Shown: one piece after another, positions 2,091 through 7,017 of the stretch
Layout: each line of letters begins with the position of its first letter
How positions within the stretch are numbered: position 1 is the first letter of the stretch
Assembly: GCF_017094525.1 (NCBI RefSeq)
Contig: NZ_CP064788.1
Span: 1,597,030-1,661,029 of the forward strand
DNA length: 64,000 nucleotides
Reading direction: 5' to 3'
Source of the DNA: Halapricum desulfuricans
GTDB taxonomy: Archaea > Halobacteriota > Halobacteria > Halobacteriales > Haloarculaceae
Translations under genes and position numbers: made by a program
The notes under the pieces: generated by a model
Databases searched by the model: none
Told to the model about the DNA's origin: nothing
What the model saw: only the letters and a program-made list of their open reading frames with translations

Positions 2091-2268
2091 CGAGCGTATC
2101 CCCGACGCCGACGCTCTTGAGAGTGACGATTGTTCGGGTCGTGGTTGTCAGCCGACCACGGAATCACAGTTCGAAGGGGCTGGATCGGCATCGCGTCGCG
2201 TGGATGATGGCCGATTGAGACGTTGGGTTAACTTTGATTACCCTTGGCAACCTATCTCTAGGTGTACG

Positions 2269-3411
2269 ATGGATATTGCTGATATTGCTACCAGCGAATA
2301 CGTCGCAGTCGACGCCGACGAACGCCTCGGAAAAGTCCGTTCGATCTTCGAGCGGGACAATCCCAAGGGGATCATCGTTACTAACGACGGCGACTACGAG
2401 GGCGTTATCACCCAGAAACAGCTGGTACAGTCGCACGTCGAGGACCAGACCAAAGCGAGCGCGATGACCCAGCACGCCCCGAAGATCGAGCGGACGGCCG
2501 ACGTCCGCGAGACCGCCCGCGTCCTCGTCGAGGGCGGGATCAAGGTCGCGCCGGTGTTCGAGGCCGGAAGTCTGTGGGGCGTCGTGACCGACGACGCGAT
2601 CCTCGAGGCCGTCCTTGAGAACCTCGACGCGCTGACCGTCGAGCAGATCTACACCGACAGCGTCACCTCGATTGACGAAGACGCGCAGGTCGGACAGGCG
2701 ATCAACAAGCTCCGGGAGAACGGCATCTCCCGGCTGCCGGTCATCGACGAGGACGGCCGCCTCTCCGGGATGGTCACCCGCCACGACATCGTCGACGTCG
2801 TCGTCCGGGACATGGACAAATCGACGGTCGGCGAGCGTGCGGGCGACGTCGACCGCATGCTTGATCTCCCGATCTACGACGTGATGAACAGTCCCGTCGA
2901 GACGACGACGCTTGAGGCATCCGTCAAAGACGCCGTCGAGACGATGTTCGAGTACGACTACGCGGGACTTGTCGTCACGCCCGAGGAGGACGAGTCGCTG
3001 GTGGCTGGCATCATCACCAAAACTGACGTCCTCCGTGCGCTGACGTTCACCGAACAGAACCACATGGACGTCCAAATCACTAACATCAACCTCCTCGATA
3101 CGATCTCCCGCGAGGACATCCGGATCGGCATCGAGGACGTCGCCGACAAGTACCAGGACATGCAGGTCCATCACGCGCACGTCAGGTTCCACGAACACAA
3201 GGAGAAACTCCGCGGGACGCCGCTGATCCAGTGTCAGATCCGGCTCCGGACCAACAAGGGACAGCTGGCCGGGTCCGGTGAGGGGTACGGCGCACAGACC
3301 GCCTTCAACGTCGCCCTCGATAAGCTCCAGCGGAACGTCCTCGAACAGAAGGGCATCGAGAGCGACGAGGAGTACCGCGGACAGGTCCTCCGGAAACTGG
3401 GCGAGTTGTAA
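2269..3411 (+). CDS. Four-CBS-domain protein with C-terminal HPF/S30AE-like domain
   Basis: The 380-residue cytoplasmic protein carries four CBS modules at about residues 1-55, 62-115, 125-182 and 200-265. CBS pairs normally bind adenine nucleotides. The last ~100 residues look different. A helix (ADKYQDM) is followed by two beta strands with [11 protein letters not shown] and a long helix ([18 protein letters not shown]), the order and spacing seen in HPF/YfiA ribosome-hibernation proteins. I infer a nucleotide-sensing ribosome-associated factor; the biochemical role is not proven by sequence. I chose ATG 2269 rather than an in-frame start at 2200, because the first CBS strand begins directly after it and haloarchaeal CBS proteins usually start this way. 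Confidence 0.85.
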
Positions 3412-3485: not shown

Positions 3486-3641
3486 ATGAGCTCCAGCGAC
3501 AGCGGCGGACTGATGTCCAGTGCCGGCCTCGTCCGGTACTTCGACGCCGAGGACCGAAACGCGATCACGATGGACCCCCGTTCGGTGGTCGCGTTCGGCG
3601 CGATGTTCGGCGTGCTTGTGCTCGTTCTGAACGCCCTGTGA
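3486..3641 (+). CDS. secG: Preprotein translocase subunit Sec61-beta (archaeal SecG)
   Basis: A 51-residue tail-anchored membrane protein. The short Ser/Gly-rich N-terminus ([15 protein letters not shown]) is followed by RYFDAED, the conserved TMDPRSVV motif and a single C-terminal hydrophobic helix ending LVLVLNAL. This is the Sec61-beta signature, and the protein is the small third subunit of the SecYE translocon. It lies 74 bp after the CBS/HPF-like gene on the same strand. Confidence 0.93.
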
Positions 3642-3729: not shown

Positions 3730-5115
3730 ATGAGTGACACGACTCGCCTGAAGGTCCGGGGGATCTACACCACTGCACTGACTCGCCTGTTCGCGACGAG
3801 CGACGGGTTCGAGGTCGTCCAGCCCTCGCCGCCCATCGACGATCGGTTCGATCGGGCGTTCGATCTCGCGCCGGCGGCAGCGACGCTGTTCACGAGCGAC
3901 GACCGACAGGGCGTCGGCGTCGTCGGGCCGGCCGCTCCCGACGTGCGTGAGCGACTGGCGGCGGTCGGCGTTGATACGCTCACGTGGCGCGACCCGGCGG
4001 CCCGCGGTTCGGTCTGGGACGCGACGATCACCGAGACGAACAGCGGCGGGGCGATCGTCGACCTCGACGAGCGGTCGGCCTTTCTGCCGTTCTCGAACGT
4101 CGACGACCGCGTCGAGACGGGCAACACCGTCCGAGTGCAGGTGACAGAACCCCGGCCCCCCTGGGACGACGGCCGGCCGGTCGTTGACTCGACCGTGCGC
4201 GTCCAGCGCCCGCTGGTCACGCTCGTCCGAGACGGCGCGGACGGCGGGCACGGCGGTCCGGAGCTCGCGGATCTGCTCCCGACCGAGCCACCGGGCGGTT
4301 GGCGCGCGACGTGGAGTCACGCGGCCGACGACGCCGGACTCGACGCGCTCGGCGACGCGCTGGAAACCGCCGTCGAACGCGCCGAGGAACTCGACGACGC
4401 CCTCGATGAAACTGAAATGGGGGGGACACCCCGGACCGTCTGTGAGGGACAACCGACAGCCTGGGCGTGGTTCGGGCGCGAGTCGCGCTTCGAACTGGAT
4501 GATCTCCGAGCGTCGGTGACGACGACGATGCCCGGCCACCACCGGATCAAGGCCGGCGACGAGCGCGCGAGCGCCGCCGTCGACTTCGCCGAGGCCGTCG
4601 GTGCCAGCGACGGCGGGTTCCCCTTCGAGGCCGTCTCTCGGCAGTTCGGCCCCACAGAGGGGGACACGGTCGCCATCGACCACGGCAAGCCCGCGGGTCA
4701 CTGTATCCGGCTGGGCCGGGGTGAGGTGACAGAGTACGACCCCTCGGGGACGGTGTGGGTCGAACGCGAGATGTCCCCCGGCGGGACCTACGACGGACTC
4801 GGGATCGAGCGACGGGCCGGCGACGTCGCCCGGACGAAGTTCACCGAGGGCAAGTGGTGGTATCCGACGATCTACGAGAGTGAGGACGGCGAGACGCGCG
4901 GCACCTACGTCAACGTCTGCACGCCGGTCGAGATCTTCCCCGGGAGCGTCAGGTACGTCGATCTGCACGTCGACGTCCTCAAACACGCCGACGGCACGGT
5001 CGAACGGGTCGACGACGACGAACTCGACGCGGCCGTCGAAGCGGGCGACGTCTCCGAGCAACTGGCGGCGAAGACGCGCTCGATCGCCAGTGCCGTCGAG
5101 AACGCGCTATCGTGA
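3730..5115 (+). CDS. FAU-1 family RNA-binding protein / putative RNase (DUF402)
   Basis: The 461-residue protein has an S1-like beta-barrel at about residues 80-140 (RGSVWDATI, GGAIVDL, AFLPFS, the pattern of RNase E/G-type S1 domains). A middle helical part and a C-terminal DUF402 domain (about 310-440, with GHCIRLGRGEVTEYD and GKWWYPTIY) follow. This is the FAU-1 layout, reported to bind AU-rich RNA and to have RNase E/G-like activity. The likely role is RNA processing or decay. I chose ATG 3730 because the family N-terminus (DTTRLKVRGIYTTALT) begins there. The window also has an in-frame ATG at 3703. Confidence 0.9.
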   Translation: MSDTTRLKVRGIYTTALTRLFATSDGFEVVQPSPPIDDRFDRAFDLAPAAATLFTSDDRQGVGVVGPAAPDVRERLAAVGVDTLTWRDPAARGSVWDATITETNSGGAIVDLDERSAFLPFSNVDDRVETGNTVRVQVTEPRPPWDDGRPVVDSTVRVQRPLVTLVRDGADGGHGGPELADLLPTEPPGGWRATWSHAADDAGLDALGDALETAVERAEELDDALDETEMGGTPRTVCEGQPTAWAWFGRESRFELDDLRASVTTTMPGHHRIKAGDERASAAVDFAEAVGASDGGFPFEAVSRQFGPTEGDTVAIDHGKPAGHCIRLGRGEVTEYDPSGTVWVEREMSPGGTYDGLGIERRAGDVARTKFTEGKWWYPTIYESEDGETRGTYVNVCTPVEIFPGSVRYVDLHVDVLKHADGTVERVDDDELDAAVEAGDVSEQLAAKTRSIASAVENALS

Positions 5116-5428: not shown

Positions 5429-6136
5429 CTAGAAGTCGATACTGAATCCGCCGTCACGACCCCCGCCGTCGCCGCTCGGCAGGTTCGGGACGAGCCACGA
5501 GAGGAACGCGTCCGGACTGCGGGTCTGCAACCAGACGGTCCCCGGGCCGGAAAACTCACAGACGAGTCCCTCGCCGCTGAACAGCGTCGACTTCAGCCCG
5601 CCGACCTTCCGGACCGAGAAGTCCGTGGACCCCTCGAACGCGACGATGTGGCCCGTATCGACGGTGTAGGACTCGTCGGGATCGAGTTCGCGTGACTCGA
5701 TCGCGCCGTAACTGGAGAGAAACGCCGGACCGGACCCGTCCAGTTCGAGCAGGAACAGCCCTTCCCCGCCGAAGAAGGTCTTGCCGCCGCCGAACTCGGT
5801 ATCGATGTCGACGTCGGGGTGGGCGGCGACGAACGACCCCGACTGCACGTACAGCGACTCGTGATCCAGCCGGTAGTGGACCATGTCACCCGGCAAGGGC
5901 GGCGCGAGCGTCACGTGGCCCGGTCGGCCGGCGGTGAAGGTGTTCATGAAGAACGATTCGCCGCCGAACGCCTTTCGCTTGATCGAGTCCAGGACTCCGC
6001 CGCTCGCGCTGGTCTCGATCTCGATGCCGTCGGTGTGGCTGACCATCGCTCCGGCCTCGGCCTGCAGCTGTTCTCCCTGGTTCAATTCGGCCGTCAGGAG
6101 CGCGTAGGACGGTCGATGTTCGATATCGTACTCCAT
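5429..6136 (-). CDS. TIGR00266 / AIM24 family protein
   Basis: The 235-residue protein has the all-beta, glycine-rich pattern of the AIM24/TIGR00266 family. This shows in YALLTAELNQGEQLQAEAGA near the N-terminus, the SFFMNTF segment, and repeated GGEGLFLLEL / FSGEGLVCEF strands. Family members are widespread but biochemically uncharacterised; a mitochondrial relative (Aim24) affects inner-membrane organisation. There is no signal peptide or membrane helix. The start ATG 6136 gives the standard family N-terminus. Confidence 0.92.
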   Translation of the reverse strand: MEYDIEHRPSYALLTAELNQGEQLQAEAGAMVSHTDGIEIETSASGGVLDSIKRKAFGGESFFMNTFTAGRPGHVTLAPPLPGDMVHYRLDHESLYVQSGSFVAAHPDVDIDTEFGGGKTFFGGEGLFLLELDGSGPAFLSSYGAIESRELDPDESYTVDTGHIVAFEGSTDFSVRKVGGLKSTLFSGEGLVCEFSGPGTVWLQTRSPDAFLSWLVPNLPSGDGGGRDGGFSIDF

Positions 6137-6174: not shown

Positions 6175-7017
6175 CTAGCGCGCCGGCGGGACGAGCAGGA
6201 CGTTGCTGTCCGCCCTGGCCGTGACGTCTTCGGAGGTGCTCCCCAGCAGGAGTCGACGGAGGCGGCTGCGTCCCCGGCCGCCGAGGAGGATCGTCGTCGG
6301 ATCGATCTCGTTTTCGGCGGCCAGGATCTCCTCGACGGCTTCCCCTTCGCGGATCATCGTCGTCGTCTCGATCCCCTTCTCATCCAGGGACTCGGCCATC
6401 GATTCGAGGCGCTCCTCGGCGTCTTCGATCTTCTCGTCGCCGGCACGGCGCTCCGGCGGGGCGACGTGCAACAGCGTCGCCTCGTGGGTCGCCGTTCTCG
6501 TCCGCTTGAACTGTTCGAAGGCTCGTTCGGCGTTCTCCGAGAAGTCGGTTGCATACAGCATCCGCTGGAAGAGGTGCTTGTTCGCGACCGCCGGCGATCC
6601 GTCGCGCCTGACGATCCGCTGCACCAGCAGCGGGCTGACCGTCGTCCGGGCGAGGTTTTTGACCGTGCCCCCGATGAATCGTTGCTTGAGCGGGCTCTGA
6701 CCCCGGGAACCCGCGATGATGAGATCGGCGTGCACCTGCTCCGCGAGTCCGTTGATCCGCCGATGTGGCGTCCCACGGACGACGTGGGTGTTGACTGTGA
6801 ACCCCTCCGATTCGAGCTGTGTCTTCTGGCGCTCGAGGCCTTTCTTCGTTCGACTCCCGATGTCGCTGCCGGGCATCCCCGTCGTGACGTTGGGGCTGGT
6901 CACCGTGATGAGGTCGATCTCCTTGATCCCGTATCGGCCGAGACACTTCAGACACACCCGCGAGTCGATCGCCGTGTCGATCGCCGATGACAGGTCCGTC
7001 GCGTATACTGCGCGCAT
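6175..7017 (-). CDS. Tandem universal stress protein (UspA family)
   Basis: The 280-residue protein contains two Usp domains (about residues 1-142 and 148-280). Each ends with a nucleotide-binding loop of the G-x2-G-x9-G type, GSRGQSPLKQRFIGG in the first and GGRGRSRLRRLLLGS in the second. ATP binding is therefore likely in both halves. A TATA-like AATACTATTAG lies about 25 bases upstream of ATG 7017, consistent with a leaderless transcript. Only a general stress-response role can be inferred. Confidence 0.95.
   Translation of the reverse strand: MRAVYATDLSSAIDTAIDSRVCLKCLGRYGIKEIDLITVTSPNVTTGMPGSDIGSRTKKGLERQKTQLESEGFTVNTHVVRGTPHRRINGLAEQVHADLIIAGSRGQSPLKQRFIGGTVKNLARTTVSPLLVQRIVRRDGSPAVANKHLFQRMLYATDFSENAERAFEQFKRTRTATHEATLLHVAPPERRAGDEKIEDAEERLESMAESLDEKGIETTTMIREGEAVEEILAAENEIDPTTILLGGRGRSRLRRLLLGSTSEDVTARADSNVLLVPPAR

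Follow-up and report, generated by a model that had tools for sequence, protein, structure and literature searches.

The hibA locus and its genomic setting

The 64,000-nucleotide stretch of the Halapricum desulfuricans genome analysed here (the window) contains an open reading frame on the forward strand (2269–3411, ATG at 2269 to TAA at 3411, without an internal stop) that encodes a protein of 380 amino acids, which we assign below to the HibA family. The features of the gene, hibA, are given in Table 1. The start at 2269 is backed by the alignment of homologues and by an upstream TATA-like element, TTTGATTA, common to close relatives. A longer reading frame beginning with GTG at 2200 was considered as the hibA start; it is not needed, and the same two lines of evidence favour 2269. 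In most relatives of the same family a T-rich motif (TTTGATTA, TTTGATAA or TTGATAA) stands at approximately the same distance from hibA, and the stretch GGTTAACTTTGATTACCC...GTACG up to the hibA ATG is identical in Halapricum hydrolyticum, which encodes the closest named relative of the protein (92% identity). Because the TATA-like element recurs in close relatives, we suggest that hibA has its own promoter and would be transcribed with a short leader or leaderless.

Table 1. Coordinates of hibA and its parts in the window
Feature	Coordinates	Strand	Evidence
hibA, clade A haloarchaeal HibA, 380 aa	2269..3411	+	ORF; Pfam CBS x4; end-to-end 9sr9_H and 9l96_a matches; orthologues in 115/116 Halobacteria
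TATA-like element TTTGATTA	2233..2240	+	about 29-36 nt before hibA ATG; putative function
CBS1, CBS2 and CBS3, residues 1-180	2269..2808	+	Pfam; motif counts in 60 homologues
CBS3-CBS4 loop, residues 182-199, PTC loop equivalent	2812..2865	+	alignments; residues 180-192 disordered in model
CBS4, residues 200-261, complete motif G247-D253	2866..3051	+	Pfam; motif counts in 60 homologues
HPF-type domain core, residues 263-361	3055..3351	+	AlphaFold2; Foldseek against PDB; profile search
C-terminal tail/helix, residues 362-380	3352..3408	+	alignment; low-confidence model

Upstream of hibA, and divergent from it, lies pyrBI (aspartate carbamoyltransferase). Downstream are a gene for Sec61beta (3486–3641) and one for a DUF402 and S1-domain protein (3730–5115, forward strand) of the FAU-1/RNase W type; these ribonucleases have been linked to the processing of rRNA (PMC11602121). 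We weighed a conserved hibA–Sec61beta–FAU-1/RNase W operon and rejected it: of the loci checked, only that of Halapricum hydrolyticum has this gene order, which was not found in 29 other orthologous loci (1.5-kb flanks) or in seven further named loci. We therefore claim no functional linkage between hibA and its neighbours. Nearby on the reverse strand are genes for an AIM24-family protein (5429–6136) and for a universal stress protein that matches Usp twice (6175–7017). Elsewhere in the genome, in the region C1:470769–471305, lies a gene for a 290-amino acid CBS protein that matches HhpR along almost its entire length (E 6e-47, under the model cut-off) and is probably the CM-3 type regulator.

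Domain architecture and the C-terminal fold

Four stretches of the protein match the Pfam CBS family (PF00571, E 1e-40). The initial annotation had described four CBS modules followed by an HPF/YfiA-like C terminus, and this architecture is borne out by the Pfam matches, by the AlphaFold2 fold and by Foldseek. In the AlphaFold2 model of residues 262–380, the expected order strand-helix-strand-strand-strand-helix was found (mean pLDDT 78.8), and the domain limits first noted, 270–375, are close to the modelled core together with the C-terminal helix. In a Foldseek search of the C-terminal model against the PDB, ranks 1–31 were all HPF, YfiA, RaiA or plastid pY structures, with a top E-value of 3.5e-5; the library ends on 8 April 2026, and entries 9l96 and 9sr9 are absent from the matches, probably as later releases. 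The bacterial HPF/YfiA/RaiA proteins share the fold of the window domain (target TM up to about 0.76), but they are without a CBS module and are only about 11–26% identical to the window domain in the fold matches. The models are of medium confidence, being built on alignments of only 26–27 rows, and in the loop between CBS3 and CBS4 the disordered residues have pLDDT values below 50. The best fold matches of the full-length model were ribosome-bound Methanosarcina CBS proteins, archaeal CBS proteins and AMPK gamma.

Profile searches gave a weaker signal for the protein itself. The Ribosomal_S30AE model (PF02482) scored 17.1–18.6 bits over residues 292–361, under the curated cut-off of 23.7, so that the S30AE relation of the window protein rests on its fold. 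Among homologous C-terminal domains, 22 of 26 match the same model (E up to 1, the best being 1.8e-5), and these matches, taken with the AlphaFold2 fold and the Foldseek result, argue that the likeness to HPF reflects a true domain and is not fortuitous. A PF02482 search of the whole genome returned no match; a search by family would thus have missed all three HibA copies that the genome carries. The net charge per 100 amino acids is −1.7 in the HPF domain and −11.1 in the CBS part, and in a halophile a near-neutral domain beside a strongly acidic one is what rRNA binding would lead one to expect. The C-terminal tail, with its RKLGEL or RKLNEL end, is conserved within clade A (see below) and differs in clade B.

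Relation to HibA and to other hibernation factors

HibA was published in April 2026 (Nat Commun) from Pyrococcus abyssi, using cryo-EM and gene deletion (PMC13324472). The P. abyssi protein consists of an N-terminal CBS module (residues 1–269) and a C-terminal HPF/RaiA domain (270–392). It is abundant on 70S ribosomes, sits on single 70S particles in three positions and inhibits translation, and Thermococcus barophilus deleted for HibA has smaller 70S pools and is slower to recover (PMC13324472). A phmmer search of PDB sequences with the window protein returned 9l96_a (5e-71) and 9sr9_H (1.5e-49, over window residues 3–377). The latter, a chain of 392 residues deposited as "Dehydrogenase", we treat as P. 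abyssi HibA, given that in length, architecture and multi-entry ribosome context it fits the published account; blastp aligns it with the window protein over the full length (31% identity, E 1e-55). The two proteins have in common the four CBS modules, the C-terminal HPF/RaiA domain (as in T. barophilus HibA), an equal CBS3–CBS4 loop length and complete CBS3 and CBS4 motifs; at 31% identity, the window protein differs in its acidic, halophilic composition. A long beta hairpin with conserved H310, E312, R315 and G316 lies at the described place of the second of two archaeal-specific insertions in the HibA HPF domain (PMC13324472), as located by that description.

The PTC loop of P. abyssi HibA (residues 190–207) aligns without gaps to window residues 182–199, with G-E-x-A-G in common, and its length and the pattern G-[ED]-x-x-G are kept in clade A proteins, with one extra residue in 2 of 30. 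In the window protein, CBS3 (G167–D173) and CBS4 each contain the full nucleotide motif G-x-x-[ST]-x-x-D. The T/S and D positions of both motifs are complete in all 60 haloarchaeal proteins compared and also in P. abyssi HibA, where CBS3 and CBS4 are the only modules with complete motifs; the CBS1 motif is without its Asp in nearly all of the 60, and CBS2 is variable. The P. abyssi CBS module has one site, between CBS3 and CBS4, with a higher affinity for AMP (Kd about 12 uM) than for ADP or ATP (PMC13324472). The window protein probably also holds an adenine nucleotide, preferably AMP, between CBS3 and CBS4, and energy sensing by it is plausible, both on the evidence of these motifs. In the same study, AMP and ATP had no clear measurable effect on the binding of P. 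abyssi HibA to ribosomes (PMC13324472).

Several other systems resemble HibA in part. The 406-amino acid CBS protein of PDB entries 9l96, 9l98, 9l9c and 9l9v has the same architecture as the window protein and is 38% identical to it, but it carries a Gly/Ser-rich PTC-loop insert and an FGW-type C terminus and belongs to clade B by the tree. Dri of Pyrobaculum and, by their PDB titles, SriA–SriD of Methanosarcina place a four-CBS module on ribosomes as HibA does; unlike the window protein, Dri has two CBS modules, and the available sources report no HPF domain in Dri or SriA–SriD. HVO_2384 of Haloferax volcanii is a CBS protein of 42.5 kDa with a C-terminal hibernation-factor domain (PMC12607858). 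Its mass falls within that of three clade A proteins (42.0–42.8 kDa) and below that of three clade B proteins (43.4–44.6 kDa), and from mass alone membership in clade A is suggested. Our literature searches found no paper for PDB 9l96, for Haloferax hibernation structures or for SriA, and no ribosome experiment for any proven clade A haloarchaeal protein.

The initial annotation had also proposed an archaeal ribosome-dormancy protein that would bind or dimerise ribosomes. The dormancy part agrees with the experimentally established hibernation role of the CBS-HPF proteins of the HibA family (PMC13324472), and the dimerisation part is not supported. Formation of 100S-like or 30S–30S particles, as by long HPF or aRDF, would have precedents, because other archaeal and bacterial hibernation factors do dimerise ribosomes or subunits (PMC11724365), and aRDF of Pyrococcus furiosus, like HibA, inactivates archaeal ribosomes. 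However, aRDF, set apart here by its description, makes 30S–30S dimers, unlike HibA (PMC11724365), and P. abyssi HibA was described on single 70S particles (PMC13324472). Bacterial long HPF carries its dimerisation domain C-terminal to the HPF domain, whereas the window protein ends in the HPF domain, and a Pfam search of it at E up to 10 returned no dimerisation domain. We consider dimerisation by the window protein highly improbable. Scarcely more credible is that it mainly regulates in response to adenylates, its HPF domain having been put to some other use, such as the binding of other RNAs or of protein partners, while binding to the ribosome is secondary. Pull-downs with HibA of P. abyssi and Thermococcus recovered proteins of DNA replication and recombination (PMC13324472), and HVO_2384 co-purified with an inactive variant of the Pat2 acetyltransferase (PMC12607858), as such a role might predict. 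Against it, HibA is abundant on P. abyssi 70S ribosomes, and within clade A the residue conservation of the HPF domain (0.81) equals or exceeds that of the CBS part (0.68–0.78).

Overall, the results from sequence and predicted fold support well the reading of the window protein as a 70S-plugging hibernation factor. We put the probability at about 0.9 that the gene encodes a clade A HibA acting on the 70S ribosome like Pyrococcus HibA, an action that we infer for the haloarchaeal clade A proteins as a group. The CBS-HPF architecture and the hibernation role are already published for the HibA family, of which the window protein is an expected member. In the mechanism that we propose, the HPF domain of clade A HibA would most likely occupy the mRNA/tRNA channel of the 30S subunit and the four-CBS disc the vacant tRNA sites of the 50S subunit, from where the CBS3–CBS4 loop could reach the peptidyl-transferase centre. 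In cells under stress or in stationary phase, domain, disc and loop would jointly keep the 70S ribosome together, block translation and shield its active sites, and HibA would leave the ribosome upon the return of mRNA and tRNA.

Two haloarchaeal clades of HibA

At least one HibA was found in each of 116 sampled Halobacteria genomes. Of these, 115 have full-length clade A proteins with 61–80% identity to the window protein, and 38 have a second protein of about 401–406 amino acids, clade B (hand-counted matches at E <1e-90, including the one genome without clade A). In a maximum-likelihood tree, the two clades are sister groups apart from the HibA of other Halobacteriota, with support of 100/100 both for clade B and for the split of A and B from these other proteins; given the sister relation, the duplication is no younger than the base of the sampled Halobacteria. 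Clade B also takes in the protein of PDB 9l96. In the genome without clade A, the only HibA branches at the base of B and already has the insert. In a different genome (G058:C1:1012500–1014500), we noted an extra, fast-evolving HibA-like protein of 384 amino acids without the loop insert, on a long branch beside clade A.

The clades differ in the PTC loop. All 30 clade B proteins compared have 14–25 extra residues (43% Gly and 14% Ser) inside it, at a position between window residues 186 and 187, where clade A proteins have 0–1. In addition to the clade A gene of the window, the 2.89-Mb genome of H. desulfuricans encodes one intact clade B protein (401 amino acids; C1:1459833–1461035, reverse strand), with a Gly/Ser-rich insert inside the loop, and one decayed clade B copy (about C1:1233054–1233872, forward strand), which is without the end of CBS1, CBS2 and CBS3, contains a frame change and, in its C-terminal half, shares 70% identity with the 9l96 protein. 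The passages of PMC13324472 consulted mention neither the haloarchaeal duplication nor the PTC-loop insert, and this may be the new part of our findings. We tentatively propose, at less than even odds, a two-factor system in which a near-constant, short-loop HibA-A is joined by an accessory HibA-B, whose Gly/Ser-rich loop would extend deeper into the exit tunnel or the peptidyl-transferase centre; each would be specialised for its own stresses or ribosome states.

In conclusion, the results indicate that the HibA mode of hibernation is near-universal in Halobacteria, a group in which genetics is easy (Haloferax). The near-universal clade A protein and the patchy clade B protein with its enlarged PTC loop would provide a ready pair for probing the role of the loop and of nucleotide binding by the CBS module.
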